NCBI RefSeq assembly: GCF_015207375.1
Contig: NZ_JADEWY010000012.1
Location: 1-64,000, forward strand
Length of the DNA: 64,000 bases
Direction of reading: 5' to 3'
Origin: Coleofasciculus sp. LEGE 07092
GTDB taxonomy: Bacteria; Cyanobacteriota; Cyanobacteriia; Cyanobacteriales; Coleofasciculaceae
Below are positions 10,630-32,176 of this stretch, in pieces. Every line of letters starts with the position of its first letter. Within the stretch, counting starts at the first letter, position 1. The translations under genes and the position numbers were made by a program. The notes under the pieces are model-generated. The model was not told the origin of the DNA and searched no databases. It worked only from the letters and a program-made list of their open reading frames with translations.

Positions 10630-10703
10630 GCGACATTATTGCAGTCGTTGGCAAAATATTCAACTGTGTTTCACTTCCTTTGCTGTAAGGAGACAGTAGA
10701 AGT

Positions 10704-11777
10704 ATGCGAGTTGCTCAAGTTTCGCCTCTGTGGGAAAGGGTTCCCCCACCAGGTTACGGTGGCATCGAGCTAGTTGTTGGTCATTTGACTGATGAACTAG
10801 TCCGTCGCGGTCATGATGTTACCCTTTTTGCGTCTGGAGATTCTCAAACCTTAGCACGATTAGAATCGGTTACTCCCCAGGCGCTACGCCTCAATCCAGC
10901 GGTGAAAGAGCCTGCGGCTTATGACTTGCTTCAACTGAGCCGCATCATGGCACAGGCAGAAGCCTTTGACATAATCCACTTTCACACGGGTTTTACAGCT
11001 CTGCCGTTTGCAGAAATGGCAAAAACTCCGGCGGTGCATACGCTGCATGGTGGCTTTACTGAGGATAATCGCCCATTATTTACTCAGTATTGCAACCAAG
11101 CTTATATCAGCATTAGTGACGCGCAGCGAAAGCTCGAACCTCAGCTTAATTACGTGCGAACGGTTTACAACGGCATTAATCCCGACGATTATCCGTTCCA
11201 CGCCCAACCTCAAGATCCGCCCTATTTGGCATTCTTAGGACGGATGTCCCCGGAAAAAGGACCGCAACACGCGATCGCTATTGCCAAGCAGACGGGTTGG
11301 CGCTTGAAAATGGCGGGTAAAGTCGATGTAGTGGATCGGGAATTCTACGAGCAAGAGATTGCCCCCCAAATCGACGGCGAACAGATTCAGTATCTCGGTG
11401 AACTTACCCATGAACAAAAGGTCGAGCTTTTGGGTAATGCCACGGTGACTCTCTTCCCGATTACTTGGAGTGAACCCTTCGGCTTGGTGATGATTGAGTC
11501 GATGTGTGCGGGGACACCTGTAATTGCCATGAATCTGGGTTCAGTGTCAGAGGTAATTGCTCACGGGAAAAGTGGATTTGTCTGCAACAGCGTGGAGGAA
11601 ATGAGCGCGGCTATTCCAGCAGCCATAGAACTCAACCGTCAACAGTGTCATGACTTTGTGGTGCAACACTTTAGTGTCACCCAGATGGTAGACAGCTATG
11701 AGGCGGCGTATCACAAAATCTTGAACGAGCAGATGTCACGAAACGGGCACGTTCATGCACCTGTCTTGAGTCTGTAA
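10704..11777 (+). CDS. Family 4 glycosyltransferase
   Basis: 357 residues, start ATG preceded by AAGGAGAC. The N-terminal domain begins MRVAQVSPLWERVPPPGYGGIE and shows HFHTGF; the C-terminal domain has FLGRMSPEKGPQHAI and the donor-binding E-x7-E region PFGLVMIESMCAGTPVIA. This is the GT-B fold of retaining GT4 enzymes, which transfer sugar from a nucleotide donor, usually at the inner membrane face. Substrate is not readable. It is followed after 34 bp by a small zinc-ribbon gene on the same strand. Confidence 0.92.
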   Translation: MRVAQVSPLWERVPPPGYGGIELVVGHLTDELVRRGHDVTLFASGDSQTLARLESVTPQALRLNPAVKEPAAYDLLQLSRIMAQAEAFDIIHFHTGFTALPFAEMAKTPAVHTLHGGFTEDNRPLFTQYCNQAYISISDAQRKLEPQLNYVRTVYNGINPDDYPFHAQPQDPPYLAFLGRMSPEKGPQHAIAIAKQTGWRLKMAGKVDVVDREFYEQEIAPQIDGEQIQYLGELTHEQKVELLGNATVTLFPITWSEPFGLVMIESMCAGTPVIAMNLGSVSEVIAHGKSGFVCNSVEEMSAAIPAAIELNRQQCHDFVVQHFSVTQMVDSYEAAYHKILNEQMSRNGHVHAPVLSL

Positions 11778-11811
11778 TCGGTTAGCTGGTTTTTAAGGTT
11801 AGAGAAAACGT

Positions 11812-12003
11812 ATGCAAACGAATTTTTCTTGCCCTTGCTGCGGCGCTGCACTACTACGCCATGCAAAAGGCAACAGTCTCTACTGGTTCTGTACATCCTG
11901 CTGGCAGGAAATGCCTGCATCTGCACTGGCTAATATACTGCCTCCTGACAGTTTGTTGACTACCGTTGTTTCTCAGGACGTTCAACCTGAGACGGTTCCT
12001 TAG
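11812..12003 (+). CDS. Small zinc-ribbon-like protein
   Basis: 63 residues with two knuckles, CPCCG and CTSCW, spaced about 24 residues apart, a classic treble-clef/zinc-ribbon arrangement, followed by a variable tail. It probably binds Zn; partner and role unknown. The short gap after the glycosyltransferase gene suggests co-transcription. Confidence 0.65.
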   Translation: MQTNFSCPCCGAALLRHAKGNSLYWFCTSCWQEMPASALANILPPDSLLTTVVSQDVQPETVP

Positions 12004-12007
12004 GTTT

Positions 12008-12145
12008 AATGCCACTGACTTAAGCCAAAATTTATGCAGACTGGGACTAGGGAAGGAAACCCAGCAAACCCTTGTAACACTTGGGTTTCGCTGTAGCTCA
12101 ACCCCACCTACGGATTCTTGAATCTCTGCTTAAGTCAGTGCCATT
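12008..12145. repeat. Candidate 138-bp MITE with 18-bp terminal inverted repeats
   Basis: AATGCCACTGACTTAAGC at 12008-12025 is inverted with one mismatch as GCTTAAGTCAGTGCCATT at 12128-12145. The interior has no coding capacity. It lies in the leader of the cobA-hemD fusion gene. Only one copy is seen in this window, so the MITE call rests on the structure. Confidence 0.5.
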
Positions 12146-12188
12146 CTTCTTATATGATGATGCCAAGACCTAGAACCGTCGCACCATC

Positions 12189-13802
12189 ATGACTGAGAGC
12201 ATCGGCAAAGTCTATCTCCTCGGGGCTGGACCCGGAAGCGTCGCATATCTCACCCTCCGAGGACAACAGCTACTCAATCAAGCCGAAGTATTAGTCTACG
12301 ATGCTTTGGTAGACCCTCAGCTATTCAAGTTAGTCCCCACTAATTGCCGTCAGTTTGATGTAGGGAAGCGAGGCGGAAGCCCCTCCACTCCTCAATCTGA
12401 AATCAACCAACTGCTGGTAGAGCAATGCCAACAAGGTAAGCAAGTGGTGCGACTCAAAAGTGGCGATCCCTTTATTTTTGGTCGCGCTACCTCAGAAATT
12501 CAAGCGTTGATTGCCGCTACCTGTCCGTTTGAGGTTGTACCCGGAATTTCTTCTGCACTGGTAGCCCCGTTGTTGGCAGATATTCCCTTAACTGATTCTG
12601 TCCTAAGTAAATGCTTTGCAGTATTAACCGCTCACCACCCTGAAGAACTGGACTGGGAGACACTAGCCCGCATCGATACCCTATCAATTTTAATGGGTGG
12701 GCGTCATTTAGATACGATTGTCCGCCAGTTACAGAGATATGGGCGATCGCCTCAAACCCCCATTGCTGTCATTCGCGCTTGCGGACGCCCTGAACAGCAG
12801 GTTTGGGTTGGCACATTAGCCGATATTTTTCAGCAAACGGCTGGTGTGTCTCTCTCGCCTGTGGTAATTGTGGTAGGAGAAGTAGTGAACTTGCGGAATT
12901 ATTTAGGGAATGGGGAATGGGGAATGGGGAATGGAGAGAGAGCGTTTCATTTGCCATTAGCTGCATTACACGAGGAGTCTAAGGTGCAATCGTCAACTCG
13001 ACGCCAACTGTCCACTCAACGGCTGAAGGGCAAAACTGTTTTAGTCACTCGTTCTGCCGACCAGTCTAGTAAATTTAGGGATTTATTAGAATGTGAAGGC
13101 GCAACGGTTATTGAAATGCCTGCATTGGTGATCACGCCTCCTTCAAGTTGGGAAGCGTTGGATCGTGCGATCGCAAACTTATCAGATTTTGATTGGTTAA
13201 TTCTTACCTCCAGTAACGGTGTCGAGTCATTTTTTGAGCGGCTCCTGACTCAAGGAAAAGATACCCGTACCTTAGCCGGCGTCAAAATTGCAGTTGTTGG
13301 CAAGAAAACGGCGGCTAATTTAAAAGAACGAGGATTGAAGCCCGATTTTATTCCCCCCGATTTTGTGGCTGATTCCCTGGTTGAACATTTCCCAGAATCC
13401 TTGACTTATAAAAAAGTTTTGTTTCCGCGTGTGGAGACAGGCGGGCGGGAGGTTTTGCTTAAAGAATTAACTGCCCGAGGTGCTGATATTGTTGAAGTTG
13501 CTGCTTATCAATCCGCTTGCCCTGAGCAAATCGCACCGGTTGCGTTTGAAGCCTTGCAAAGGAAAGCCGTTGATATTATTACCTTTGCTAGTTCTAAAAC
13601 CGTCAAGAATTTTTATTACCTTTTAGAGGAAGCATTAAAAGATAAGGGAGATGTTACTCCTCATTCTCTTCTAGAAAACCTCTGTATTGCCTCCATCGGT
13701 CCCCAAACCTCCAAAAGTTGCTATGAATTATTAGGGCGGGTTGATGTGGAAGCTGAGGAATATACTTTAGAGGGGTTAACCCAGGCGATCGCTAGAAGAT
13801 GA
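12189..13802 (+). CDS. cobA/hemD: Fused uroporphyrinogen-III C-methyltransferase / uroporphyrinogen-III synthase
   Basis: 537 residues. Residues 1-240 are a SAM-dependent uroporphyrinogen methyltransferase (VYLLGAGPGSVAYLTLRG, VVRLKSGDPFIFGRA, VVPGISSALVAP), which makes precorrin-2 for sirohaem and cobalamin. Residues about 275-537 are HemD (GKTVLVTRSADQSSKFRDLLECEGA, WLILTSSNGVESFF, DIITFASSKTVKNF), which closes the tetrapyrrole ring. The linker contains the translated heptamer repeat (NGEWGMGNGE), an in-frame expansion. It converges on cysK with two bases between stop codons. Confidence 0.94.
   Translation: MTESIGKVYLLGAGPGSVAYLTLRGQQLLNQAEVLVYDALVDPQLFKLVPTNCRQFDVGKRGGSPSTPQSEINQLLVEQCQQGKQVVRLKSGDPFIFGRATSEIQALIAATCPFEVVPGISSALVAPLLADIPLTDSVLSKCFAVLTAHHPEELDWETLARIDTLSILMGGRHLDTIVRQLQRYGRSPQTPIAVIRACGRPEQQVWVGTLADIFQQTAGVSLSPVVIVVGEVVNLRNYLGNGEWGMGNGERAFHLPLAALHEESKVQSSTRRQLSTQRLKGKTVLVTRSADQSSKFRDLLECEGATVIEMPALVITPPSSWEALDRAIANLSDFDWLILTSSNGVESFFERLLTQGKDTRTLAGVKIAVVGKKTAANLKERGLKPDFIPPDFVADSLVEHFPESLTYKKVLFPRVETGGREVLLKELTARGADIVEVAAYQSACPEQIAPVAFEALQRKAVDIITFASSKTVKNFYYLLEEALKDKGDVTPHSLLENLCIASIGPQTSKSCYELLGRVDVEAEEYTLEGLTQAIARR
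12906..12934. repeat. GGGGAAT heptamer repeat inside the cobA-hemD linker
   Basis: Four tandem GGGGAAT units lie in the coding sequence and keep the frame, adding a Gly/Asn/Glu/Trp-rich stretch exactly between the two enzyme domains. Confidence 0.85.
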
Positions 13803-22491: not shown

Positions 22492-22594
22492 CGATCGCCC
22501 TCCCTCTCAATCAATTATCCTATAGAACAGGCAGCATAAGCTGTCAATGGCAGGCTGGGAAACTATTCGGGTATTTTTTATTAAAACGTGCATC

Positions 22595-23197
22595 ATGGAA
22601 TCAACCACCACTCAAGCCCTGAAAGAATGGGCTGTTGCCGTTGATGCTTTAGAACAGGGCAAAACAATCGTACTGCTTCGTAAAGGAGGCATTCGCGAAG
22701 AAGGCAACCGCTTCCAAGTCGCCTATGACCAAGTTTTACTTTACCCCACTTACGAACATCAACAACCTGACTTACTCAAAGCTGAGTACACCCATCAGGT
22801 GACACCAGTCACATCCGGTTGGCATCCAGAAACCGTGCGGGTTGGGAGTTGGGCTGAAATTACTGATATTTTAAGGGTCAGTGAACCACCAGATCTTGAG
22901 GCATTGTCACCCTATCACATCTGGAACGAAAAGTTTGTCAGTGCACGTTTCAAGTGGAAGCCCCGTCAACCTCTCTACATCCTGTTGTTGCGGACTTATA
23001 AACTGACGTCCGTTCACCAGATTCCTTACCGTTCCGAGTATGGGGGTTGTCGTTCATGGATTGATTTAGCTGCACCGATTTCTTTAGAGGGTTCTGTTCC
23101 TGTTTTAGGTGATGGGGAGTACGTCAAGGAAACGGGTCAAATTTGTCAGGTTCTTAAGGAATTAAGGCTACAGAGAATCCCCAGGTTAAGAATGTAA
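22595..23197 (+). CDS. DUF1802 family protein
   Basis: 200 residues from the ATG at 22595; the longer frame from 22547 adds 16 unconserved residues. ALKEWAVAVDALEQGKTIVLLRKGGIREEG, the YPTYEHQ segment and PLYILLLRTYKL are characteristic of DUF1802, a family frequent in cyanobacteria with unknown function. No membrane span. It is the last host gene before the phage-like element and converges with it. Confidence 0.82.
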   Translation: MESTTTQALKEWAVAVDALEQGKTIVLLRKGGIREEGNRFQVAYDQVLLYPTYEHQQPDLLKAEYTHQVTPVTSGWHPETVRVGSWAEITDILRVSEPPDLEALSPYHIWNEKFVSARFKWKPRQPLYILLLRTYKLTSVHQIPYRSEYGGCRSWIDLAAPISLEGSVPVLGDGEYVKETGQICQVLKELRLQRIPRLRM

Positions 23198-23210
23198 CAC
23201 GCCAATACTA

Positions 23211-23224
23211 CGTTATCGTGATAA
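23211..23224. terminator. Short palindrome between host and phage-like genes
   Basis: GTTATCGTGATAAC is a perfect 14-base palindrome just after the DUF1802 stop and before the last gene of the leftward array. It may be a shared terminator stem or an attachment-site element; there is no T-run to decide. Confidence 0.3.
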
Positions 23225-23242
23225 CAAAGCTCTACCACGACA

Positions 23243-23758
23243 CTAGTTGGATTGACACCAGTCCTCATCAGCACGTACCCTTACACGCCGAGCCGGAAGT
23301 GCTCGAACTGTGATATTTAAATCTGGGCATTCATTGTCATCATCATCGTCATCATCATCTGGAGGAGGCGGACAACCAGGACGGCTAAAACTCCAAGGCG
23401 GGTCAGTATGAGGATACCCATTATATATACTTGCAGGACCGCCATTAAAATTTAGATAGAGAGGATAAAATTCCTCTCCCTCAGAGGTAAAAAATCGAAA
23501 ACGAAAAACTGTATAAATTTTGTTAGAATCGAAATTTCTAGCTTGGTTAATACCAGAAACAGAATATATTACCTCCCACAAACAAGGAGATTCATCGACC
23601 CACCGAGGGGCAAAAATTTGATATTTCTCGTGAGAAATGCTACCGATATCAATAGCTTTATCAAATTCCAAAATAAAAGCTGTATTGGCTAAAGCATTCT
23701 GAGGAAAAGATAATAAAATAAATGCTGTACTCAAAAATGTTTTCTTAAACAAACTCAT
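23243..23758 (-). CDS. Secreted protein with poly-Asp stretch, phage-element cargo
   Basis: 171 residues from the ATG at 23758, which has TGGAGGATT upstream and overlaps the replication gene by 14 bp; the longer open frame lacks support. A signal peptide (KKTFLSTAFILLSFPQNALA) precedes a mature domain with several aromatic strands and FNGGPASIYNG, then Pro4-Asp8 and a basic C-terminus with three Cys. No family recognised. Its tight coupling to the Rep gene makes it part of the element; it might be a virion-surface, calcium-binding or superinfection protein, but this is guesswork. Confidence 0.6.
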   Translation of the reverse strand: MSLFKKTFLSTAFILLSFPQNALANTAFILEFDKAIDIGSISHEKYQIFAPRWVDESPCLWEVIYSVSGINQARNFDSNKIYTVFRFRFFTSEGEEFYPLYLNFNGGPASIYNGYPHTDPPWSFSRPGCPPPPDDDDDDDDNECPDLNITVRALPARRVRVRADEDWCQSN

Positions 23759-24629
23759 AATAATCCTCCAGATGATTCCACTCAAGAGATACTGGAATCC
23801 CAACTTGAGCTTGCTCATCCCCAGCCGTGAGATTAGACTCAATGGCATCCAACTGCTTTTGGCTCACATACTGGGATACAAGCCCACCAACCGTCACTGA
23901 GCGAGTTTTCTTCAACTGGTCAGTAATCGCATAAAGCCATTCAGCATCAACCGCTAAATCTGAAGGCTTAACCGAATACTTAACGACCTCTAATAACGCA
24001 TCAACCCAACCTTGATTACCGCGTCGCTGAACAGAACGAACGTATACAACTGGGTCATAATCCAAGTTCGCTGACTCCCGCCAAAACTGAACCCATTGTT
24101 CAGTGTTTAAATAACTCTCAGAGAAATATTCAGGGGGCATTAACAACAAAGCATGATAGTGAGGATGAGCTTCACCTGTTTGGGAACGAGTAACCTCAAA
24201 CGACCGAATATAGCCAGACGGAGAAACACTACGACGAGAAAGCAATCGATGCCATCCTTTAGCCATCGAATCAATCTGTAACCGCAATCGGTCAACAGGA
24301 CAATTACGAACCGTGAAAGTCAGAAAAATCCAACGATAATTGGAAAAATCTGAATGCAGCCGGGAAAAACCCCGAAAAAACTTAGCCCTCCACTTAGAAA
24401 CTTTTGCCCATTGACACAAGGGACATTGCCGACAACGACACCAGCGCACATTTTGAATATGAGCCAAAAGAGTATCCCCTCTTAACTCACCCGGTATCAG
24501 TCGAAAATCAAATCGAGGCGCACAATTCAAAATCCGCTCAGCATATCGCTGAAAATCTGGGCGCTCACTAGCGAGATAGGAAGCTACAATCCCCAAGCTG
24601 TACTGTTTCAAAGAGTCAAAATTGTCCAT
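23745..24629 (-). CDS. Rolling-circle replication initiator (Rep_1-like HUH endonuclease)
   Basis: 294 residues from the ATG at 24629; a TTG six codons upstream is also possible. A Cys-rich segment WCRCRQCPLCQW precedes FLTFTVRNCP (motif 1), AHPHYHALLLM (the HUH metal site as His-Pro-His-Tyr-His) and LLEVVKYSVKP, which holds the candidate nicking Tyr followed by Lys. This is the pattern of pC194/pUB110-type plasmid and phage Rep proteins, which nick a double-strand origin. It stands last but one in the linear array; in a circular genome it would lie just upstream of the repressor and origin region. Confidence 0.85.
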   Translation of the reverse strand: MDNFDSLKQYSLGIVASYLASERPDFQRYAERILNCAPRFDFRLIPGELRGDTLLAHIQNVRWCRCRQCPLCQWAKVSKWRAKFFRGFSRLHSDFSNYRWIFLTFTVRNCPVDRLRLQIDSMAKGWHRLLSRRSVSPSGYIRSFEVTRSQTGEAHPHYHALLLMPPEYFSESYLNTEQWVQFWRESANLDYDPVVYVRSVQRRGNQGWVDALLEVVKYSVKPSDLAVDAEWLYAITDQLKKTRSVTVGGLVSQYVSQKQLDAIESNLTAGDEQAQVGIPVSLEWNHLEDYYEFV

Positions 24630-24671
24630 AAGTACAAAGCGCTGCAATTATGCCTATATTCTCAAGTAAAT

Positions 24672-24732
24672 AGATGGCTTCGCCCTCGCTGCCCTCCACT
24701 CCGTTCCGGGCTACGCTGACGGGCTTCGCGCC
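24672..24732 (-). repeat. GC-rich block between the TPS and Rep genes
   Basis: A 60-bp GC-rich run in otherwise AT-rich DNA, including GGGCGCGAAGCCC, which forms a small hairpin, and a GCCCGGAACGGAGTGGAG stretch. It follows the TPS stop codon directly. It could be a terminator, an inserted repeat or part of an origin. Confidence 0.4.
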
Positions 24733-26112
24733 CTACGGGTTAATCCTCAAAAGGCAACTTAACTCCCCATTGCGAAGCCTCGACCAGCTCAAACAATAGG
24801 GGTCAGGGAACGACTGAAGCTTAATCTCTTCAGAAAAATTCCAGACAGGAGATAAAATGGGAGAAGATTCAGCAATAGCCGCCTCAATTGCCGAATCAGC
24901 AAAAGTTTCATCTAGGAATTTCGCCGCTGTAAAATTCTCTGGTACAGAAACCAAAGTTCCTGGTTCTGGGTCAGCCAAAGCTTCTGAGTCAGGAGTAAGA
25001 ATTTCCGAGTCAGAAACTGGTGGATCGGGAGTGAGAACTTGCGGCTCAGGTGCTGGTGGATCGGGAGTGGGAACCTCAGGCTCAGGTGCTGGTGGATCGG
25101 GAATAGGAACTTCCGGCTCAGGCGCTGGTGGATCGGGAGTAGGAACTTCCGGCTCAGGCGCTGGTGGATCGGGAGTAGGAACTTCCGGCTCAGGCGCTGG
25201 TGGATCAGGAGTGGGAACCTCCGGCTCAAGTGCTGGTAGATCGGGAACAGAAGCCCAATCAACACGATAAATATCTCCCTGGCCCTTCAAGATTTCACGA
25301 ATCTGGGATTCAGACTGATTACCAATCAAAACATCAGGCGAACGCAAAACATAGCCAGACACTCCAAGATAAACTAAGACACTACCCTGGAGAGAACCAG
25401 AAAAATTAGTAGAGACAAAAAAAGAGGGAGAAGACGAAACTAGAAGAATATCCGAAAAAGGAAGCTCAAAAGAAGGTTGAGGAATTATACTCCAATTTCC
25501 TGTATTAACATCGATTGTGTAACGACTAAAAATATTAGGAGGAACAGGGATAAGAGTTGTTTGTTCTGCATCCAACCTACCCACACTAACAATTGAACCC
25601 GCACTGAAATTAATCGATTCTGCTTCAATAACGCCAAAGTTCAAAATAGGATTCTTGACAGAGGAACCAAAAACTAAAAACCGAGGTAAAGCTGAACTAG
25701 ATGAATCAGAATCAAGAGGATTAACGGCAAACCATTCTGCCAAATCTTCAAATCGAATCGAAGTAGCTGTAGTCGCTGTAAAGGCAGCCGGAACGTTTAT
25801 CTGAGCATTAGAACCAAAAACGATACCAGACGGATTGATTAAAAAGAAATTAGGAGTACCACCTGTAACAGTCAGTCGCCCATTAATGTAAGAGAAATTC
25901 CCTCCCGTTACTCGATTGAAAAGATTCTGAACTTCAGGCGGGACAAGAAAATCAAGAGACTGATTACTTCCTAAATTCAACTCCTCAAACGTATGAAAAA
26001 GATTAGCTCCTTTCTGGTCACCCCCTGTTACCTGATAATCATTAAGCTGCTGTTCAATCACAACAGTGGGAACCATAGGAGTAATTTGAGCCAAAACCAA
26101 AGATTCAATCAT
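24733..26112 (-). CDS. Filamentous-haemagglutinin (TPS-domain) protein with Pro-rich repeats, carried by the phage-like element
   Basis: 459 residues from the ATG at 26112, whose first base overlaps the Zot stop and which has GGGAGG seven bases upstream. Residues 10-135 are a TPS domain: GGDQKGANLFHTFEELNL, FFLINPSGIVFGSNAQINV, PAAFTATTATSI. The host TPS-CHAT protein at 37569 has nearly the same motifs. After a unique region, six or so PEVPTPDPPAPE repeats form a stalk, then a 100-residue tail with no membrane anchor. The start MIESLVLAQITP keeps the AQ cleavage-site look of host proteins but has no real signal peptide. It occupies the position of gene IV in Ff phages. Candidate adhesin, tail-tip protein or export adaptor. 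Confidence 0.8.
   Translation of the reverse strand: MIESLVLAQITPMVPTVVIEQQLNDYQVTGGDQKGANLFHTFEELNLGSNQSLDFLVPPEVQNLFNRVTGGNFSYINGRLTVTGGTPNFFLINPSGIVFGSNAQINVPAAFTATTATSIRFEDLAEWFAVNPLDSDSSSSALPRFLVFGSSVKNPILNFGVIEAESINFSAGSIVSVGRLDAEQTTLIPVPPNIFSRYTIDVNTGNWSIIPQPSFELPFSDILLVSSSPSFFVSTNFSGSLQGSVLVYLGVSGYVLRSPDVLIGNQSESQIREILKGQGDIYRVDWASVPDLPALEPEVPTPDPPAPEPEVPTPDPPAPEPEVPTPDPPAPEPEVPIPDPPAPEPEVPTPDPPAPEPQVLTPDPPVSDSEILTPDSEALADPEPGTLVSVPENFTAAKFLDETFADSAIEAAIAESSPILSPVWNFSEEIKLQSFPDPYCLSWSRLRNGELSCLLRINP
25017..25240. repeat. 36-bp minisatellite in the TPS gene
   Basis: About six tandem 36-bp units encoding PEVPTPDPPAPE. Units at 25090-25200 are nearly identical and outer ones are degenerate, as expected for recent expansion. 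Antisense open frames across it are by-products. Confidence 0.85.
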
Positions 26113-26876
26113 CAGCACACCTCCCTATAAGAAATCCAAGGTTTAAGAGGATTGACTAAACAAGGATTTTCCTCAACTCGTGCAAACGAGGAATAACACT
26201 TGAAAAGAAGCTTATCAAGAGCCGTAAGATTACCTTGATAAGTCTTCTCAGCTAACTTAAGACTAGACGCATAAGCCTTGAATCCTGTCACCTGTCCCCC
26301 TAACACTTTCCGCTCAAAAACTGTAAAATTACGAGCTGTAAAAATCCTGAAAAACTTACCAACTAACTCCTGATTCCCACCCAGTTTGTCACTATTCTTA
26401 GTTGGACAATCACAAAATATATACGCCGAAGTCAACTCTCGAATTGTTTTATCAGCCTGGTCTTTATATTGTCCTATCCAAAATATACGCCGCGAATCAT
26501 GCCGAACTTGAGCTAAACTTGCTAGAAAATCTAAAGGAATGTTCTTAAAATTCCTAGCATTTAAATAGACAGCACCTGCTTCATCAATAATATAAAGAGT
26601 CTTTTTCTCTCGCATAAATTCACTCAGAAGAAGCTTATCACCAGATGCACAGGAACGAACTTGAATATACCCATGAATCAATCGACTCAAAAGCCAAGTG
26701 TAGCCATTATAAAGAAAATAGTAATAAAGCGCTTTGGCATTCAAATGGAAGTTAGTAATAATATCCAGTTTTAATGCCTCAGCAATCTCAAACCCCACTA
26801 AAAGACTTACAAATGTTTTACCAGAACCCATCTCACCAACAATACCTGTAATAGTTCCCGGTGGAATATAAACCAT
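26112..26876 (-). CDS. Zot/pI-like filamentous phage assembly ATPase
   Basis: 254 residues. Walker A is GIVGEMGSGKTF near residue 12-22, and Walker B is TLYIIDEAGAVYLNAR near 95. LAQVRHDSRRIFWIGQYKDQADKTIREL matches the Zot/pI pattern of an Arg-rich sensor segment followed by a conserved Gln and Asp-x3-Arg. In filamentous phages pI/Zot sits in the inner membrane and drives virion assembly and extrusion. A clear transmembrane span is not obvious here, unlike Ff pI; YYYFLYNGYTWLLSRLI is the only hydrophobic stretch. The start overlaps the preceding stop (TAATG) and the end overlaps the TPS start. Confidence 0.85.
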   Translation of the reverse strand: MVYIPPGTITGIVGEMGSGKTFVSLLVGFEIAEALKLDIITNFHLNAKALYYYFLYNGYTWLLSRLIHGYIQVRSCASGDKLLLSEFMREKKTLYIIDEAGAVYLNARNFKNIPLDFLASLAQVRHDSRRIFWIGQYKDQADKTIRELTSAYIFCDCPTKNSDKLGGNQELVGKFFRIFTARNFTVFERKVLGGQVTGFKAYASSLKLAEKTYQGNLTALDKLLFKCYSSFARVEENPCLVNPLKPWISYREVC

Positions 26877-27100
26877 TAGAATTTACCTCCCATAATCTTA
26901 TAAATTTTGAAAGGCACGACCAAAGAAAGAACCAAACTTATATTCTGAGCAGCCTCAAGAATTAACTGACCACCAACAAACGGAACCGCACCAGCCAACT
27001 GATTCGCTAAACTAGCTAACTTTAAATCCTCAGGAGTCGCTGGCAGAATTGAAGAAAAGGCTTTAGTAACGTTACAAAAAAACTCTCCAAATGTTCCCAT
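26876..27100 (-). CDS. Small hydrophobic protein, pVI-like position
   Basis: 74 residues with two hydrophobic segments (ANQLAGAVPFVGGQLIL and ISLVLSLVVPFKIYKIMG) and a basic end. No family recognised. It lies between a small pIII-like gene and Zot, the place of gene VI in Ff phages, and overlaps the Zot start. A minor coat or cap protein is likely from position and topology. Confidence 0.65.
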   Translation of the reverse strand: MGTFGEFFCNVTKAFSSILPATPEDLKLASLANQLAGAVPFVGGQLILEAAQNISLVLSLVVPFKIYKIMGGKF

Positions 27101-27112
27101 AAATAATTCCCA

Positions 27113-27442
27113 TTAGAGTACTAAGATGGCAAAATAGAGCATCGCCAAAACAACCCCTGGCTCCACAGAATGCCAAATATCAACTAGCCAACAAGCTTCC
27201 CATTCTTCCCCAAAGAACTCAGCGGAAGGACAGGAAAGAGAACCCAGAGAAGGAGCTGCATAAAAATCAAAGGGAAACCGAGTCTGAAACCTAGACTGGA
27301 TACAACCTAAAACAGTCTGCTCATCAAAAGGATGAAACTCCGGTCCCGTCTCCACTTCAATCTCTACCTGCTGTGACCGCAGTACAGAAGGCTGAACAAC
27401 AAGAAAACAAGCTGACAGCACTAAATACAGAAAAAGCTTCAC
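27113..27442 (-). CDS. Secreted, C-terminally anchored small protein, pIII-like position
   Basis: 109 residues: signal peptide (MKLFLYLVLSACFLVVQPSVLRS), a 70-residue exported part with three Cys (GCIQ, LSCPS, EACW) and an acidic character, and a C-terminal hydrophobic anchor (PGVVLAMLYFAILVL). This is the topology of inovirus pIII and it follows the coat gene and its terminator, as gene III does in Ff. It is much shorter than Ff pIII (about 400), so the receptor-binding part may be elsewhere, for example in the TPS protein. Confidence 0.68.
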   Translation of the reverse strand: MKLFLYLVLSACFLVVQPSVLRSQQVEIEVETGPEFHPFDEQTVLGCIQSRFQTRFPFDFYAAPSLGSLSCPSAEFFGEEWEACWLVDIWHSVEPGVVLAMLYFAILVL

Positions 27443-27453
27443 AGTTTACCTCC

Positions 27454-27480
27454 AAAGTAAAGGGAGGCACTTAGCCCCCC
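27454..27480 (-). terminator. Terminator directly after the major coat gene
   Basis: On the leftward strand GGGGGGC (27480-27474), loop TAAGT, GCCTCCC, then TTTACTTT. It lies 17 bp after the coat-gene stop. Ff phages carry a terminator at the same place (after gene VIII), which makes coat mRNA the most abundant. Confidence 0.75.
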
Positions 27481-27497
27481 TCATCAGAATTAAAGGA

Positions 27498-27758
27498 TTA
27501 GAGATTCCTCAGAACGATATGATCATAGGCACGAGCGGCTGACCGGATACCTAACGGACTAATAACCAGACCACTAAAGGTCACGATCATCGCACCGAGG
27601 GTAGCAACCAGAGTGTCAATCTGCTTAATGGAATCATCGAAGCTAGTCTGAGCACGAACTGGAGCAGCGGAAAAACAAATGGCAAGAGACGCCACTAAAG
27701 CCAGAAAGAAATAACGCTGAATCACAGCACGTTGAAATCGACGAAAGGCTTGGAACAT
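27498..27758 (-). CDS. Candidate major coat protein (pVIII-like)
   Basis: 86 residues. A long basic n-region and hydrophobic core (FRRFQRAVIQRYFFLALVASLAICFSAAPVRA) form a 36-residue signal peptide with a VRA cleavage site. The mature protein is 50 residues: an acidic amphipathic N-terminus (QTSFDDSIKQID), a membrane span (TLGAMIVTFSGLVISPLG) and a basic C-terminus (IRSAARAYDHIVLRNL). That is the exact plan and length of Ff pVIII, whose basic end contacts DNA. There is GAGG upstream and a terminator immediately downstream. Confidence 0.8.
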   Translation of the reverse strand: MFQAFRRFQRAVIQRYFFLALVASLAICFSAAPVRAQTSFDDSIKQIDTLVATLGAMIVTFSGLVISPLGIRSAARAYDHIVLRNL

Positions 27759-27765
27759 AATAACC

Positions 27766-27933
27766 TCACTTAAAGAAGTAAACAGTCAATGCCAGTAGGC
27801 TGCAAAAGCCCAGGTAAATCCCAGAAGCCGAGATAGCCCAATTCAGAGAATCCTGAAAAAAGGAACCCATCTCAGACGTTAACTGGGGGAGGTCGGGCAA
27901 GGTTTGCGCAAAAAAGAACAAAAAATCTGACAT
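27766..27933 (-). CDS. Tiny single-span membrane protein (55 aa), phage element
   Basis: A short frame with TAGGAGGAATT directly before its ATG, the best Shine-Dalgarno in the array. The translation opens MSDFLFFFAQTLPDLPQ and ends ASGIYLGFCSLLALTVYFFK, one membrane span near the C-terminus. It ends 7 bp before the coat gene. Candidate minor coat protein or chaperone of assembly; no homologue recognised. Confidence 0.68.
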   Translation of the reverse strand: MSDFLFFFAQTLPDLPQLTSEMGSFFQDSLNWAISASGIYLGFCSLLALTVYFFK

Positions 27934-27941
27934 AATTCCTC

Positions 27942-28196
27942 CTATTTACTTTTAAGAAAAAAACCAACACCTAAAGCGAGAGCGAAAGCTGAAACAATCC
28001 CCAATCCTTCTCCTGTAAAAAAGCCAACTGTGCCAGAAACAGCATCGCCAACCATTTGAGAAGGACTCCCATAAAGAGCAACAGTCTGATTGACACCAGG
28101 GCAGCAAGGATGCAGTCCATAATCTCTATCACAGTCGATGTTAAGCTGAGATTCCTGTTCATCAGTTATAGGCAGCTCGTAGGGACATTCGTTCAT
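27942..28196 (-). CDS. Small membrane protein with Cys-rich N-terminus (84 aa), phage element
   Basis: The N-terminal 50 residues are polar and acidic with four Cys (NECPYE, NIDCDR, HPCCPG). A C-terminal span (GLGIVSAFALALGVGFFLKS) follows, ending Lys-Ser-Lys. No signal peptide. The start codon overlaps the stop of the 53-residue gene (ATGA). The plan, exposed N-terminus and basic C-terminal tail, suits a virion protein inserted without cleavage. Confidence 0.66.
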   Translation of the reverse strand: MNECPYELPITDEQESQLNIDCDRDYGLHPCCPGVNQTVALYGSPSQMVGDAVSGTVGFFTGEGLGIVSAFALALGVGFFLKSK

Positions 28197-28354
28197 CGCC
28201 TTATTAAGCCCTTAAAAACAGCTATGCCAGCTACTGCCGAAATAAAAGTGATGACATTCGGCATAATATACTGAACAATATTCTGTTGAACAAAATCCTG
28301 TGGTGTCAGATTATCGGGCATCTGAAATTGAATATCCGCTAAAAAATTCATCAT
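28193..28354 (-). CDS. Tiny single-span membrane protein (53 aa), phage element
   Basis: The frame starts at an ATG whose last bases overlap the stop of the 49-residue gene, and its own stop overlaps the next start (ATGA at both ends), which strongly supports it being real. The N-terminus (MMNFLADIQFQMPDNLTPQDF) is polar, then VITFISAVAGIAVFKGLIRR is a span with a basic end. This is pVIII/pVII-like in plan. Confidence 0.68.
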   Translation of the reverse strand: MMNFLADIQFQMPDNLTPQDFVQQNIVQYIMPNVITFISAVAGIAVFKGLIRR

Positions 28355-28500
28355 TTTCTTGACCCCCGACGAACAACTTTTGGACGGGTAGAACGACGTT
28401 GTAGATAAACAGAAAATGCCCAGAGGAAGATAACAAATAAAATCCAGACAAGACCAATTTTAATTATCCAGGGAGCTACTTGAGTAGCAAACCAAACCAT
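28351..28500 (-). CDS. Tiny membrane protein with basic tail (49 aa), phage element
   Basis: Starts at the ATG at 28500, with GAGGAATTAGTT upstream and two bases after the previous stop; a longer in-frame extension to 28590 overlaps the neighbour and is rejected. One span (IIKIGLVWILFVIFLWAFSVYL) is followed by a strongly basic tail (QRRSTRPKVVRRGSRK). A DNA-contacting minor coat protein, or one anchoring the assembly site, would fit. Confidence 0.68.
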   Translation of the reverse strand: MVWFATQVAPWIIKIGLVWILFVIFLWAFSVYLQRRSTRPKVVRRGSRK

Positions 28501-28502
28501 AA

Positions 28503-28844
28503 CTAATTCCTCGGAAGAATTACAAAGAAAACATGAAGCAAAAGCCAGAAAAGAACAACTCCAACAAGGTGAGATATTAACCCAAACCATTCAGGAGTAA
28601 AGTACAAGGAAGTCGTCACTAACTCGGAATTAACCAACAAACTTGATTCAAGCAAACGAGACTTAATCTCTAAAGGAGCTTGTTGACTAGCAATTAACAG
28701 GCAGTCAAGAAACGTTGGGAGGGCAAGAAAATTGTCTGAATACTGGCAAACCCCATCTGAAAATTCCACTAAAAAGCCATTATCTTGATAGCTAAATAGT
28801 GTTAAGAAGATAGATGGCAATACGCCAGAGAATACTGAATCCAT
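28503..28844 (-). CDS. Exported protein with C-terminal membrane span (113 aa), phage element
   Basis: A weak signal-like start (MDSVFSGVLPSIFLTLFS), an acidic exported part of about 65 residues and a strong C-terminal span (FGLISHLVGVVLFWLLLHVFFVIL) ending Pro-Arg-Asn. It overlaps the 3' end of the 43-residue frame by 53 bp in another frame. No family recognised; a virion-tip protein is possible. Confidence 0.55.
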   Translation of the reverse strand: MDSVFSGVLPSIFLTLFSYQDNGFLVEFSDGVCQYSDNFLALPTFLDCLLIASQQAPLEIKSRLLESSLLVNSELVTTSLYFTPEWFGLISHLVGVVLFWLLLHVFFVILPRN

Positions 28845-28923
28845 AAATTAAAGTAACAGCGCTCAAAATTAGGTCAAGAAGCTGATGGGAAGCTTGAATA
28901 AACTCAAAAAACTGCTGAATCAT
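28792..28923 (-). CDS. Tiny single-span membrane protein (43 aa), phage element
   Basis: ATG at 28921-28923 overlaps the stop of the 152-residue gene as ATGA. The translation begins MIQQFFEFIQASHQLLDLIL and has one span (LILSAVTLIYGFSILWRIAIYLL). Its size and place, directly after the presumed ssDNA-binding gene, match Ff pVII (33 aa) and pIX (32 aa). Confidence 0.6.
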   Translation of the reverse strand: MIQQFFEFIQASHQLLDLILSAVTLIYGFSILWRIAIYLLNTI

Positions 28924-29378
28924 GCACTAATCAGCTCAGAATTAATAGAGGATTCTAATTCCTCAAGCTCATTAAATTGCTCTTCAACAGGTTCAGATTT
29001 CCAGTTCAGATGATGACCATCAATTTCTTTTAGCTCCAAAAACTCGAACCAGGTGCCGCCTTGTTCTTGAGAGCCGTAGTTGTCGATCGCTGCTCGAATA
29101 GACGCTACGCAACCGGGACGAAGACCTAAATCTTTGAGTTTTGAGTAAACTTCTGAAGTAACTTTGCATTTCCAGAACACTTCAGCTTCTTCAGCAAAAT
29201 CAGCGGATTTTTCTTTCCCTTTCTTACCCTGTCCCCAGAAAATTGGGGTAACAAATTTCATTAAAATCTTACGGGGTGCGTTTCGCTTTTTTTCTTCCTC
29301 CCGCTGTAGTGCCCATTCTAGGCTAACTAGTCGCAGATTGGGAAAGATTCCAATATATCGATGTTTGACTGTTGCCAT
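28920..29378 (-). CDS. Candidate ssDNA-binding protein (pV-like position), phage element
   Basis: 152 residues, start with GAGGAGG upstream. The middle part (KILMKFVTPIFWGQG, AEVFWKCKVTSEVYSKLKDLGLRPGCVASIRAAID, WFEFLELKEIDG) alternates strands rich in aromatic and basic residues and could be an OB fold; the last 25 residues are very acidic, as in many SSB tails. It stands first among the structural genes, where Ff gene V lies. No family is recognised, so the role is an inference from position and tail. Confidence 0.5.
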   Translation of the reverse strand: MATVKHRYIGIFPNLRLVSLEWALQREEEKKRNAPRKILMKFVTPIFWGQGKKGKEKSADFAEEAEVFWKCKVTSEVYSKLKDLGLRPGCVASIRAAIDNYGSQEQGGTWFEFLELKEIDGHHLNWKSEPVEEQFNELEELESSINSELISA

Positions 29379-29387
29379 AAAACCTCC

Positions 29388-29615
29388 TCAAAAAGGAATA
29401 GACTTACAAAACCAATCGGAGATACCAAGAACTTTCTCCCCAAACTCATCAATTAAGTCACAATCAACAAAGGGAATCATTGAGAAACAAATTAAGGGAT
29501 AAACTAGCAAACGACAATAAAAGTTAAAATAGAGGCGATTATTACCTATAAGTTTGCCGTGCAAAAATCCCCAAAATAAAATCTGCCAGTTCCAATTAGA
29601 GTCATAAAGCGGCAT
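29388..29615 (-). CDS. Small aromatic-rich protein (75 aa), phage element
   Basis: From the ATG at 29615, with AAGGAGG a little far (12 bases) upstream. It is rich in Trp, Phe and Tyr with one hydrophobic segment (LLVYPLICFSMIPFV). It ends 9 bp before the ssDNA-binding candidate. No family recognised; moderate confidence that it is translated. Confidence 0.5.
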   Translation of the reverse strand: MPLYDSNWNWQILFWGFLHGKLIGNNRLYFNFYCRLLVYPLICFSMIPFVDCDLIDEFGEKVLGISDWFCKSIPF

Positions 29616-29650
29616 CTGAATCCAAAACCTCCTTGAAAAAATCAACAAAG

Positions 29651-29803
29651 AGTCTCCCTAGCCATTAGCTTTAAGCCAATAGCTTGATAATCCCAATCTA
29701 GGGAGACTCGCTATACCAAGGTTTCTATTCTTTGGTCTGAAGACCTAACACCATTAAAAAGGCTCCCTGGCTAAAGGGAGCAAAATTGGGGACATAATGT
29801 CCC
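29651..29803. other. Hairpin cluster with CTTGATA motif: candidate replication origin
   Basis: Three inverted repeats in a gene-free stretch: AGTCTCCCTA (29651-29660) with TAGGGAGACT (29699-29708); GCTCCCT (29762) with AGGGAGC (29775-29781); GGGACA-TAA-TGTCCC (29789-29803). The first loop contains AGCTTGATAATCCC. CTTGATA is the nick-site core of pC194/pUB110-type Rep proteins, the class encoded here. It lies on the strand opposite to the phage genes, which needs explaining. Confidence 0.55.
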
Positions 29804-29830
29804 TGATTATTAATTTTTGTAAAGCTTTAA

Positions 29831-30082
29831 CTAATGACGGCTCCAAATCTCGTGAACAGTAGCTAGGCAGAATTTATGAAATAAAGTTGGAGAATGACAA
29901 TTACCTTTAAAAAACCAACGCTTAACAGTCTTGGGTGAACAAAAGCAAATCTTAGCCAGGACCGGATAAGAAACATCCCAATACTGCAAAAATTCCTCTG
30001 GCTCCATTTGGGGAAGCTCTAGTAATGCTAATGCCTGCCAATGCTTACACCCAGGAACGCGGGGATGTCGAGGGGAACTCAT
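29831..30082 (-). CDS. Small helix-turn-helix protein (83 aa), phage element
   Basis: GAGGAG precedes the ATG. MEPEEFLQYWDVSYPVLAKICFCSPKTVKRWF contains a good helix-turn-helix (VLAKICFCSPKTVKRWF). Flanked on both sides by hairpin-rich non-coding DNA. Likely a replication or copy-number regulator, or a transcription factor of the late genes; the HTH is seen, the role is inferred. Confidence 0.65.
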   Translation of the reverse strand: MSSPRHPRVPGCKHWQALALLELPQMEPEEFLQYWDVSYPVLAKICFCSPKTVKRWFFKGNCHSPTLFHKFCLATVHEIWSRH

Positions 30083-30139
30083 AACTACTCCTCAAACTAC
30101 TTACCTGATAAAAGCAATCCATCTTTACTGGTGACGCCG

Positions 30140-30259
30140 GCACCGAACACCACTTCGTTAAATTCCCCGCGCCCGACACCGCCTACTATCATCATCCAAA
30201 ACACTTAATCGATCTAAGGCGGGTCGGGCGTCCGCAAGCCGGGGAATTTTGTTCGGTGC
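30140..30259. other. Long imperfect hairpin: candidate packaging signal or origin
   Basis: Successive paired blocks: GCACCGAAC / GTTCGGTGC (9 bp), AAATTCCCC / GGGGAATTT (9 bp), CGCCCGAC / GTCGGGCG (8 bp), CCGCCT / AGGCGG (6 bp), around a 32-base loop (30185-30216). The 226-bp gap between the small HTH gene and the XRE gene contains no gene. Filamentous phages use such stable hairpins as packaging signals and for complementary-strand origin. Confidence 0.65.
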
Positions 30260-30308
30260 TATAATCTATTTTTTGTGGCTTTCATAAGTAATTACTCCTT
30301 ACTAGTTA

Positions 30309-30566
30309 TCAGTTATGGTTCTTGAACAAACCTAAATCATCGGGTAATTCGTCAAGCGACCTACCTAAAGCACGACAAAAGGCTTTCATTTGAAAAACCG
30401 TTAACTCAGGTTCATCTTCTCCACTTTCCCACCTACTAATAGCAGACTGAGTTAATGATTTAGTTCTTGTCTTATCAGGAATCTGCCTAGCTAACTCAGC
30501 TTGAGTCAAACCAGCTTCCTCCCTCAAACGACGCAAAACCGATTTATCAATCTTCTTCAGGGACAT
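30309..30566 (-). CDS. XRE-family repressor of the phage-like element
   Basis: 85 residues from the ATG at 30566 (a longer frame to 30665 runs through the operator region and is rejected). LRRLREEAGLTQAELARQIPDK...LTQSAISRWESGEDEPELTVFQMKAFCRALGRSLDEL is a complete Cro/C1-type HTH. Two near-identical palindromes lie directly upstream. A lysogeny repressor controlling itself and the rightward promoter is the natural reading. Confidence 0.85.
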   Translation of the reverse strand: MSLKKIDKSVLRRLREEAGLTQAELARQIPDKTRTKSLTQSAISRWESGEDEPELTVFQMKAFCRALGRSLDELPDDLGLFKNHN

Positions 30567-30578
30567 AATAACACAAAT

Positions 30579-30623
30579 ATAAGTATACTCATTGACAAGC
30601 TTCTGTCTCATGAGTATACTCAT
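30579..30623 (+). promoter_or_regulatory. Paired operators and consensus rightward promoter
   Basis: ATGAGTATACTCAT at 30610-30623 is a perfect palindrome; ATAAGTATACTCAT at 30579-30592 differs by one base. Centres are 31 bp apart, three helical turns. TTGACA (30592-30597) and TATACT (30615-30620) are separated by exactly 17 bases and read rightwards towards the IS110-type gene, with the -10 box inside the palindrome, so repressor binding would block it. Confidence 0.75.
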
Positions 30624-30817
30624 CTCCATAGACAACAAAACGAAGACAGCCCAAGCACCCGACAAAAGTGAAAACGGCTATCTTCTGAAAACGTCTATTA
30701 GTGTCCCATGAAAACTCTGGATCAGTAGAACAATTTCATAAGTCGTTGCGTTCGCAGGAGATTCTTGACTGGGTACTTTTGCAGGTTCACTTACTCCCAC
30801 TTATTGAACCTTGAAAA
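30624..30817 (+). other. Leader of the IS110-type gene; possible guide-RNA region
   Basis: About 190 bp from the predicted rightward start to the recombinase ATG. IS110 elements carry a structured non-coding bridge RNA next to the transposase gene, commonly upstream. I cannot fold it reliably by eye and found no clear target/donor loops. Confidence 0.35.
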
Positions 30818-32023
30818 ATGAACAGAAAGATACTCGGCGGAGATATCTGTAAAGACCGTGTTGTCTGTTGGCTTCTAGAGGACAAGCCCGACCACCTACG
30901 GAACTTTTGGAAATCTCAACTCAAATCGAGATCCAAAGACCCCGTAGAAGATACTCAAACTTTCTACTTCACCAAGACAGGCATATCCCATCTGCTTAAA
31001 CTCAAGCCTGATGTTATTGTTCTAGAGCCTACGGGAGTTCATTACTCTTGGTTGTTAGCTCACATCTGCCACTGTGAAGGGATTGAGGTGTTATGGGTTG
31101 GTCATTGTGAGGCAACTCACTACCGCAAATCGAACAAACTCCCCGATAAAAACGACCTAGCAGATGCCTTAGCTCTAGCTGCTTATGCTCATCATTACTG
31201 GGGAAAACCCGATCAGTTCCTCCAGTTCGAACCCGGTGCAATTGTACAAATCAAAGATTTATATCTACAGATGAAATCTCTGACCCGCGTACAGTCACCC
31301 ATCATCAACCGAGTCAGGCAACAACTGTGCCGGGAGTTCCCAGAAGCCGCTTTTAAAGATTCCAAAGTTGGCAAGGACGGATTAACACCTCTTTGGGCAT
31401 GGCTTGGGAATGTTGAGCGCCAAGGAGTACGGCAAAATTTCTACTATGACCGTCTCTACGACAAGTCAGTCGCACCAGCTTACGGCATTGAAATCAGCCA
31501 ATTCTCACAACGATATGCTCAACTACTCTGCCAAATCCACTCCTGGGAGCATGAAGCTGAGAAAAAACTAGCAGAACTGATTCACCTCCCACAGTTCAAA
31601 CGCTACAATCAAATCTTTGATAAGTTCGGAATTGGACTCAGACTAGGAGCGCTGTTACTCTGTCACATTTACCCACTGAGTAAGTTTGAATCTTTGGGCA
31701 GTTTTAAAAAGCGCCTGGGGATGGCAGGAGACGAGATAAGCAGCGGCGACCGTAAAGGATGGAATGCTGGGAGCGGCTCGAAAATGTGCCGAACTGAGCT
31801 TTACCTCTGGATTCTTTGTATCATCGCTCCTAAGAAAAACCGTCCTACCGGAGAAATCGGTCAAAAGCTCGGAGACTTCTATGACACACGTCACGAGCAG
31901 TTTGAGACGAATAATGAGGGTAACGGTAACACCTTTGGGAAACTCATCATCAGCCAGACCGCTGCTTATGGTACAAAGCTACTTTTTAAGGAACTCAAAA
32001 AAGCTCTGATGCTGAAAAACTAA
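30818..32023 (+). CDS. IS110-type DEDD transposase/recombinase
   Basis: 401 residues. The RuvC-like DEDD residues are visible: Asp9 in GGDICKDRVV, Glu70 in VIVLEPTGVHYSWL, Asp113 and Asp116 in DKNDLADALALA. The C-terminal part (FGIGLRLGALLLCHI, SFKKRLGMAGDEISSGDRKG, GSGSKMCRTELYLWI) resembles the Transposase_20 domain with its serine. It is a divergent member. Piv/IS110-type recombinases are known to accompany some Neisseria filamentous prophages, so this gene may integrate the element; it could also be an unrelated insertion sequence. Confidence 0.8.
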   Translation: MNRKILGGDICKDRVVCWLLEDKPDHLRNFWKSQLKSRSKDPVEDTQTFYFTKTGISHLLKLKPDVIVLEPTGVHYSWLLAHICHCEGIEVLWVGHCEATHYRKSNKLPDKNDLADALALAAYAHHYWGKPDQFLQFEPGAIVQIKDLYLQMKSLTRVQSPIINRVRQQLCREFPEAAFKDSKVGKDGLTPLWAWLGNVERQGVRQNFYYDRLYDKSVAPAYGIEISQFSQRYAQLLCQIHSWEHEAEKKLAELIHLPQFKRYNQIFDKFGIGLRLGALLLCHIYPLSKFESLGSFKKRLGMAGDEISSGDRKGWNAGSGSKMCRTELYLWILCIIAPKKNRPTGEIGQKLGDFYDTRHEQFETNNEGNGNTFGKLIISQTAAYGTKLLFKELKKALMLKN

Positions 32024-32043
32024 AGGCTCTCACACCACATTAC

Positions 32044-32117
32044 TACCTGAATTTTCCTGAATATTCGGGTAGTAACTTCTACCACTAGGCTCTAAGTCTT
32101 TATACTTAGAGCCTCTC
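32044..32117 (+). terminator. Two hairpins after the IS110-type gene
   Basis: ACTACCTGAAT pairs with ATTCGGGTAGT (one wobble) and AGGCTCTAAG pairs with CTTAGAGCCT, followed by TCTCTTCG. They may be a terminator and the structured right end of the insertion element. Confidence 0.55.
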
Positions 32118-32176
32118 TTCGTACTACATTGGCAACCTAGAGTGAAAGTGAAAGGGAAGGGCAACAAGAAGTCAAC

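Follow-up and report, generated by a model that had tools for sequence, protein, structure and literature searches.

A probable inovirus prophage in Coleofasciculus, and Cyanobacteriales relatives with probable bridge-RNA guides beside an IS110-type recombinase

Genes and features of the prophage locus

A stretch of 64,000 nucleotides from Coleofasciculus sp. LEGE 07092 (contig NZ_JADEWY010000012.1, positions 1 to 64,000; here called the window) holds a leftward array of about 16 open reading frames (ORFs), which runs with overlapping or near-touching junctions from 30,665 to 23,243 and is flanked on the right by a divergent IS110-type recombinase gene. As the first-pass annotation had proposed, this is very probably the prophage of a temperate filamentous phage (inovirus) in a cyanobacterium, which is the best explanation of the element as a whole and is supported by its gene set, the identity of its Zot protein and 13 further elements found in 12 other Cyanobacteriales genomes. 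In related elements the recombinase gene is preceded by a predicted RNA with guides that fit both the insertion site and the element ends. The host genome measures 6.7 Mb, the prophage-bearing stretch being its contig 208. The features of the locus are given below; labels beginning with G and L denote the genomes and stretches used for comparison.

22547..23197, + strand: host DUF1802 gene, in which the insertion at 23,175 has replaced the 3' end (PF08819, E 3.4e-72)
23175..32146, no strand: whole element between two GAA core copies, 8,969 bp, with ends like those of G463 and L080 and a restored DUF1802 stop
23243..23848, - strand: secreted protein with an Asp-rich part, probably starting near 23,758 (signal peptide), from the sequence
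23745..24647, - strand: Rep_1 (HUH) rolling-circle replication protein (PF01446, E 1.2e-72)
24733..26118, - strand: TPS-domain protein with Pro-rich repeats, candidate adhesin (PF05860, E 6.4e-33)
26112..26876, - strand: Zot/pI assembly ATPase (PF05707, PHROG, predicted fold)
26876..27100, - strand: pVI-like membrane protein, by its position directly before Zot
27113..27442, - strand: pIII-anchor-like protein of 109 amino acids (aa) with an FPFD...CP..FF...C... membrane end, by position and motif
27498..27758, - strand: pVIII-like major coat protein with signal peptide, mature part 50 aa
27766..28923, - strand: six small membrane proteins (55, 84, 53, 79, 113 and 43 aa), with equivalents in relatives
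28920..29378, - strand: ssb (pV)-like protein, by position and by L007 tblastx segments of 41-43%
29831..30082, - strand: small helix-turn-helix protein, 37% to L007, helix-turn-helix matches sub-threshold
30118..30262, - strand: strong hairpin in single-stranded DNA (ssDNA), candidate packaging signal or origin (z -5.3)
30309..30665, - strand: XRE repressor, likely start near 30,566 (PF01381, E 4e-11)
30640..30817, + strand: noncoding recombinase leader, a putative diverged or decayed bridge-RNA region (partial match to RNA model R1)
30818..32023, + strand: IS110-type DEDD recombinase, likely integrase (PF01548, E 6.5e-7; PHROG transposase, E 2.5e-14)
32024..32130, + strand: two strong hairpins in the right end (z -7.65)

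Inovirus genomes measure several kb, a range in which the element falls. Three genes recognised earlier from the letters alone, those for the HUH replication protein, the XRE repressor and the pVIII-like coat, stand on the matches above or on protein layout. The mature pVIII-like part is acidic at its N end, hydrophobic in its core and basic at its C end, and has positional equivalents in 10 other elements (49-50 aa by script in 3 of the 11 proteins; the other 8, in which the script cut was misplaced, come to about 45-52 aa by eye). Equivalents of the pVI-like protein in position and size occur in L007, L008, L037, L038, L039 and L040, and a motif like FPFD...CP..FF...C recurs before the pVI-like and Zot genes in L007, L008, L037, L038, L039, L043, L045 and L046 (by eye). 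After Zot, a protein resembling the secreted Asp-rich one in position and C-terminal end is found in L037, L039, L040, L044 and L045 (by eye). The pIII-anchor-like, ssb-like and secreted Asp-rich proteins have no Pfam match. Two additions to the first-pass annotation are the TPS-domain protein beside Zot and the identity of the IS110-type gene at the right edge.

Hairpin-rich gaps had been noted earlier. The stretch at 30,118-30,262 folds strongly as ssDNA and has a counterpart at the same place in L007 (z -4.5), and that at 29,652-29,795 folds moderately (z -2.5), whereas the gap between the pVIII-like and pIII-like genes, previously taken for a terminator, is weak (z -1.7, with 16 of 200 shuffles as good).

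Identity of the Zot protein

The window Zot reaches 25.1 bits against PF05707 (cut-off 20.3) and is the sole Zot match in the 6.7-Mb genome. Among 13 Zot homologues, Pfam Zot is matched by 10 at E<=0.01, the PHROG Zot-like family by 12 and the PHROG family "protein I of M13" by 6, both at E<=0.001. An AlphaFold model of the window protein, built from the 13 homologues (pLDDT 86), finds the Neisseria Zot domain 2r2a as its top match in the PDB; the best ten viral structure matches include four that are named, all of them Inoviridae Zot. RecA-type and other packaging ATPases rank lower, as is expected since the fold is shared. A generic non-viral ATPase in place of Zot is ruled out by these Pfam and PHROG matches and the top-ranked fold, so that the Zot/pI assignment of the first-pass annotation holds and the ORF, on profiles and predicted fold, is a true pI.

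Searches against phages are uneven. The Zot of the sister element L042 matches nine phage records, among them Vibrio fs2 and VFJ (presumably filamentous phages) and Thermus OH3, phiOH16, Zuza8 and Zuza27. Neither the window Zot nor that of L038 gave a useful match to phage records, nor did the window Zot to plasmids, and three scans of viral contigs returned no Zot relatives.

Related elements and exchange of modules

With the window Zot alone as query, 2 of 57 near genomes match (its own and G009), as do 3 of 386 in a wider draw (its own, G081 and one marginal). A profile of three Zot sequences raises this to 19 of 388 genomes including its own, 13 strongly and 6 marginally (E 3e-4 to 9e-4). 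The stretches fetched hold 14 elements in 13 genomes, the window included. The closest parallel is L007, from another genome of the Coleofasciculus family, whose genes run for the most part in the same order as those of the window prophage (segment identities of about 25-59% in tblastx, 88% for XRE; 75% DNA identity over the XRE stretch 30,334-30,638). This colinear conserved set places the array beyond chance.

The order ssb, small membrane proteins, pVIII, pIII-like, pVI-like, Zot is read in 10 of the 14 elements, which establishes at sequence level that gene set and order are conserved and that the small coat-like genes, as foreseen, recur among related elements. The exceptions are L008, where ssb lies on the other strand, L041 and L046, which have other orders, and L044, which is cut by a contig end. 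The Ff-like order claimed earlier applies to the run from ssb to Zot; Rep in the window follows Zot and does not precede ssb. The replication protein is Rep_1 in the window, L007, L045 and L046, and Rep_trans in L008, L037, L041, L042 and L043, which suggests that modules are exchanged.

Rep_1 is the type of small cyanobacterial plasmids (the top-ranked plasmid match, 44%, lies in Calothrix plasmid AP018279; the similarity to "Inovirus sp." MT135314 is 32%). Together with the use of Rep_trans by other elements and the occurrence of the wider recombinase family in stretches without a Zot match, this would fit a rolling-circle, plasmid-like integrative element that has merely borrowed a Zot ATPase, a reading that is highly improbable given that Zot is accompanied by the coat module in relatives.

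The TPS domain of the protein adjoining Zot is of the filamentous-haemagglutinin type. Its L007 homologue, 37% identical and encoded at a different place in that element, shares the Pro-rich repeats and the two-cysteine C end. With 25 TPS matches in the host genome, the prophage one included, capture of the gene from a host is plausible.

Further variation was seen around the pIII-like and pVI-like genes. In L007 two copies of a 422-base stretch from the Rep 3' end (294-715 and 2008-2428) enclose another pIII-like gene (719-1768), which is full-length and has a poly-Asp linker; this may be a trace of pIII cassette exchange or of a tandem prophage. A pIII-like protein of 848 aa, with the same anchor motif at its end and no Pfam match, is encoded in L043 at 10521-13067. 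Inside the G463 prophage, an ISL3-family transposase (L042:7737-8891; PF01610, E 2e-62) lies between the pIII-like and pVI-like genes.

Insertion sites and element boundaries

The clearest view of insertion comes from G463, whose 12,364-bp prophage contains Zot, Rep and recombinase. Its empty site is present in three of four congeners (G485, G494 and G533), the contig of the fourth beginning too late. The junctions read AGCAC-GAA-TCCCC on the left and ACATA-GAA-GAAATCC on the right, and the empty site of G485 reads AGCAC-GAA-GAAATCC; G494 and G533 agree with it in the left part and differ in the right (GAAAACG, CAAAACC). The insertion is therefore exact to the 3-base core GAA.

By analogy with G463, the window prophage probably extends from 23,175 to 32,146, about 8,969 bp between two GAA core copies. 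Its left end GAATCCCC at 23,175 equals the G463 left end, and its right end AACCTAGAGTGAA at 32,134-32,146 has the same 13 bases as the right end of the relative L080. On the + strand of the window, GAATCYCC occurs twice, once at this left end; the fixed string GAATC[AT]CC had missed the true variant GAATCCCC. When the flanks are joined in silico, the DUF1802 reading ends in ...LQRK and a stop, which is thereby restored. DUF1802 is matched in 18 of 20 family genomes, its own included, and full-length homologues from other genomes stop between query residues 202 and 208 of 216, near the insertion place. The limits drawn in the first-pass annotation, 23243-32140, were nearly right and are shifted slightly by these end sequences. 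The predicted circular junction of the excised element is AACCTAGAGT-GAA-TCCCCAGG. The L038 element, too, has a DUF1802 gene about 2 kb away (L038:12586-13161), by chance or as a shared hot spot.

The IS110-type recombinase

The recombinase gene occupies the right edge of the window prophage. In an alignment of four inoviral homologues (A2), D9, E70, D113, D116 and S309 are invariant; these correspond to the DEDD and serine residues of IS110-type recombinases and, together with the Pfam matches, place the protein among the DEDD recombinases of that family. A recombinase adjoins the phage genes in 5 of the 14 elements, namely the window, L043 (38% identical to the window protein), L038 (34%), L046 (28%) and L042/L084 (50%), and points away from the operon in four of them, sharing its strand in L046. 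In L008 the contig stops within the guide RNA, which brings the elements with a recombinase or guide RNA beside phage genes to 6 of 14. The other eight stretches are truncated by contig ends within or close to the phage, so that a missing recombinase there says little.

The gene might instead be an ordinary insertion sequence beside an inovirus that integrated otherwise, for instance through host XerCD. Such genes are indeed common (the window protein is matched in 122 of 388 genomes, its own included), the L007 host genome has no match, and the guides of the window misfit its own junctions. This explanation is nevertheless improbable: the window recombinase is single-copy in its host genome, three of the five recombinases beside phage genes are only 28-38% identical to the window's, a sixth element has a guide RNA at the contig edge, and the G463 empty sites show that phage and recombinase entered as one 12.4-kb unit. 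A chance host insertion sequence as the sole explanation is rejected on the single copy and the one-unit insertion. The window gene is thus probably the integrase of the prophage.

The wider family shows two further arrangements. In L081, a contig of 8,811 bases, the right end that follows the recombinase is directly succeeded by a left end, AAAGTGAATCCCC, a junction like that expected of an excised circle or a tandem pair; no exact overlap joins the two contig ends. In three genomes, related IS110-type elements (L085, L086 and L087) lie just upstream of a gene that is presumably rpsN-like and have matching right-target guides.

A probable bridge RNA in related elements

Bridge RNAs of the IS621 type are laid out as a target loop and a donor loop. 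Upstream of the G463 recombinase, the predicted RNA holds in its target loop AGCACGAA (left target and core) and ATTTCTTC (reverse complement of core and right target), and in its donor loop ACATAGAA (right end and core) and GGAGATTC (left end, 7 of 8 bases), the guide order being that of bridge RNAs. As its guides cover the two halves of the target and the two ends of the element, this RNA is, from its sequence, a bridge RNA. In L043, an element of 12,892 bp, the loops predict the left junction TTACAAG-AAA-CCTAT, a sequence with a single occurrence in 19.9 kb when the RNA itself is set aside. Target and donor loops are thus present in both sister inoviruses.

Alignment of 14 upstream regions yields two stem-loops with variable internal loops. 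In this structure 92.3% of cells pair, as opposed to 75.0% in shuffles and 30-57% in slid structures, and 20 of 28 pairs change on both sides (0 of 500 shuffles); none of the 500 shuffles attains the covariation score, whereas the pair-type count, one of five measures, was reached by 42 of 500, and helix 5 is invariant. The guides were then compared with the flanks of ten independent elements (L081, where a left end takes the place of the right flank, L086 and L087, which share the L085 site, and L091, whose right end is unidentified, were dropped). Right-target guides agree with the flank of the same element at 54 of the 70 non-core positions, while cross pairs average 1.59 of 7 (one reaches 5 of 7) and 0 of 100,000 permutations reach the sum. 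Donor guides fit at 5 of 5 positions in all ten, a count that is circular because right ends were chosen by eye, in part for their resemblance to the donor guide; the right-target test is unaffected.

The model R1 built from this RNA finds it in 13 of 17 recombinase loci outside the training set at E<=0.01 and in 15 at E<=0.05, with one stray match at 0.027. Among the inoviral elements, L008/L012 match at E 2.1e-23, L038 gives 14.9 bits (E 0.26), and in L046 the right end and the right-donor guide fit. A generic score for donor and target halves is reached by 6 and 9 of 500 shuffles, respectively, in G463 and by 21 and 5 in L043.

A hammerhead motif before the guide region

Hammerhead ribozymes share the core CUGANGA, GAAA and U-H with three stems, and this consensus was used as the search pattern. 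The loci of the relatives contain 16 distinct sequences of this kind, as opposed to none in three passes of Markov shuffles:

L046:1845-1903 (- strand), L038:4283-4341 (- strand), L008:18770-18830, L069:1189-1249 and 12 others: hammerhead motif upstream of the bridge-RNA region

In 15 of the 16 a recombinase-sized ORF follows the predicted cleavage point at a distance of 85-256 nt; the L008 contig stops before any such ORF is reached. Seven are strictly canonical, inoviral L046 among them, and nine have one or two extra bases beside stem II, including inoviral L038 and L008. Stems II and III vary with their pairing kept, stem I is nearly invariant, and the first pair of stem II is G-C in all 16. 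The motif occurs in 10 of the 29 recombinase loci L048-L076 and is accordingly common, not universal; at these search settings none was found in the window, L043 or G463. Rfam at its gathering threshold gave no match on 20 recombinase loci, and at E<=5 on 8 loci it gave five chance matches and no hammerhead. In two 151-base stretches the best match was RAGATH-1-hammerhead (20.1 bits versus a cut-off of 56.3, E about 0.2). The guide RNA may be transcribed and cleaved at this motif; a hammerhead in this position would readily provide the guide with a well-defined 5' end.

The leader of the window prophage

In the window itself, only the 3' tail of the leader (30,744-30,820) matches model R1 (20.6 bits, E 0.014), and Rfam at the gathering threshold returned no match. 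Several results weigh against extending the picture above to this prophage, or against parts of that picture. By model R1 the upstream RNA has no recognisable target or donor loop, and the window guides do not match their own junctions (the donor score is reached by 125 and the target score by 24 of 500 shuffles). RNA guidance is therefore supported for the relatives and not for the window prophage, although the generic score, weak even for G463 and L043, cannot by itself reject the window. The L046 left target is mismatched (by eye), and 36 of 500 shuffles do as well as L046 in the donor score; the L007 host genome, in an assembly 89% complete, lacks a recombinase match; and no empty site for the window prophage was found through the DUF1802 locus of relatives. 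On the phage side, pIII, pVI and pV are named by no library searched and are assigned by position, motif and size, the model of the TPS protein is of very low confidence (pLDDT 33), and virions are predicted from the genes.

The unrecognisable bridge-RNA region and a window Zot that by eye has no C-terminal membrane helix, unlike those of L041, L042 and L044, could also mean that the inovirus has decayed and lost its mobility, and that the remnant is retained because it serves the host, for example in superinfection exclusion or surface display. With the main ORFs open and conserved in frame with L007, such a remnant is unlikely, if the least so of the alternatives considered here.

Discussion

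The furthest-reaching interpretation, with a probability of roughly two in three, is a cyanobacterial lineage of filamentous phages that enter the host chromosome through a bridge-RNA-guided IS110-type recombinase, the RNA being hammerhead-released in much of the family and the guide region having diverged in the window. In the favoured inovirus reading, Rep_1 would nick the DNA and drive rolling-circle replication, the ssb-like protein would coat the single strand, and Zot/pI would extrude it through the envelope while the pVIII-like, pVI-like and pIII-like proteins assemble around it. The TPS protein may serve as an adhesin, via host two-partner secretion or at the virion tip. The XRE repressor would maintain lysogeny, and the recombinase, encoded divergently from it, would insert and excise the circle at the GA(A) core. 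In the sister phages it would be steered by a bridge RNA made just upstream, whose 5' end would in some be set by the hammerhead motif.

Elements of this scheme have precedents. IS110/IS621 bridge-RNA recombination is described in the consulted part of PMC11208160. The pairing of an IS110-family recombinase with an RNA of target and donor loops is matched in G463 and L043. Relative to IS621, the cargo of the relatives is a whole phage or larger element, and a hammerhead motif precedes the RNA in many; neither "hammerhead" nor "inovirus" is used in the main text of that article. For Thermus filamentous phages, an IS110-family transposase is thought to mediate integration, with Neisseria work cited there (PMC11437467, in the part consulted). 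By their annotations, Thermus phiOH16, Zuza8 and Zuza27 (Paulinoviridae where classified) have a similar Ff-like order with the transposase beside the replication gene, and the L042 Zot resembles Thermus phage Zot; they differ in their same-strand arrangement, their other Rep and their Thermus host. An Acinetobacter inovirus, Af1, with a DEDD IS110-type transposase, and through citations the Neisseria Piv/IS110 prophages, are treated in the accessible part of PMC11209303, which mentions no guide RNA; both differ from the window prophage in hosts and genes.

The region before the transposase of isolated Thermus filamentous phages (L131, L132) contains possible bridge-RNA donor matches. A match of this region to both halves of a donor site behind the transposase is reached by 2 of 500 shuffles in phiOH16, 0 of 500 in Zuza8 and 30 of 500 in Zuza27, the last not standing out, and model R1 finds no match in the Thermus phages at E<=0.05. 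The first two matches hint that more filamentous phages may make use of RNA guidance.

Inovirus prophages were detected through pI in many phyla (Roux 2019, PMC6813254). The main text of that survey has no use of "cyanobacteria"; cyanobacterial inoviruses may be listed in its figures or supplements, since the count covers the main text. PMC8569181, a candidate report of a filamentous phage in cyanobacteria, treats a Shewanella phage, and the uses of "hammerhead" and "IS110" in PMC4524478 are unrelated. In the open-licence literature, outside which lie preprints and most subscription papers, no article was found that combines bridge RNA with a filamentous phage, or with IS110 and a hammerhead.

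An inovirus group is hereby set out in cyanobacteria. IS110-type transposases in filamentous phages were known before, with site choice left unexplained in the consulted parts of PMC11437467 and PMC11209303; exact empty sites together with matching guides make this choice readable and testable. The relatives may further be a source of naturally occurring integrases, probably guided by RNA, with cargoes of 12-13 kb. If bridge-RNA-guided entry is true, the site of lysogeny would be written in a phage RNA and not fixed by the enzyme.

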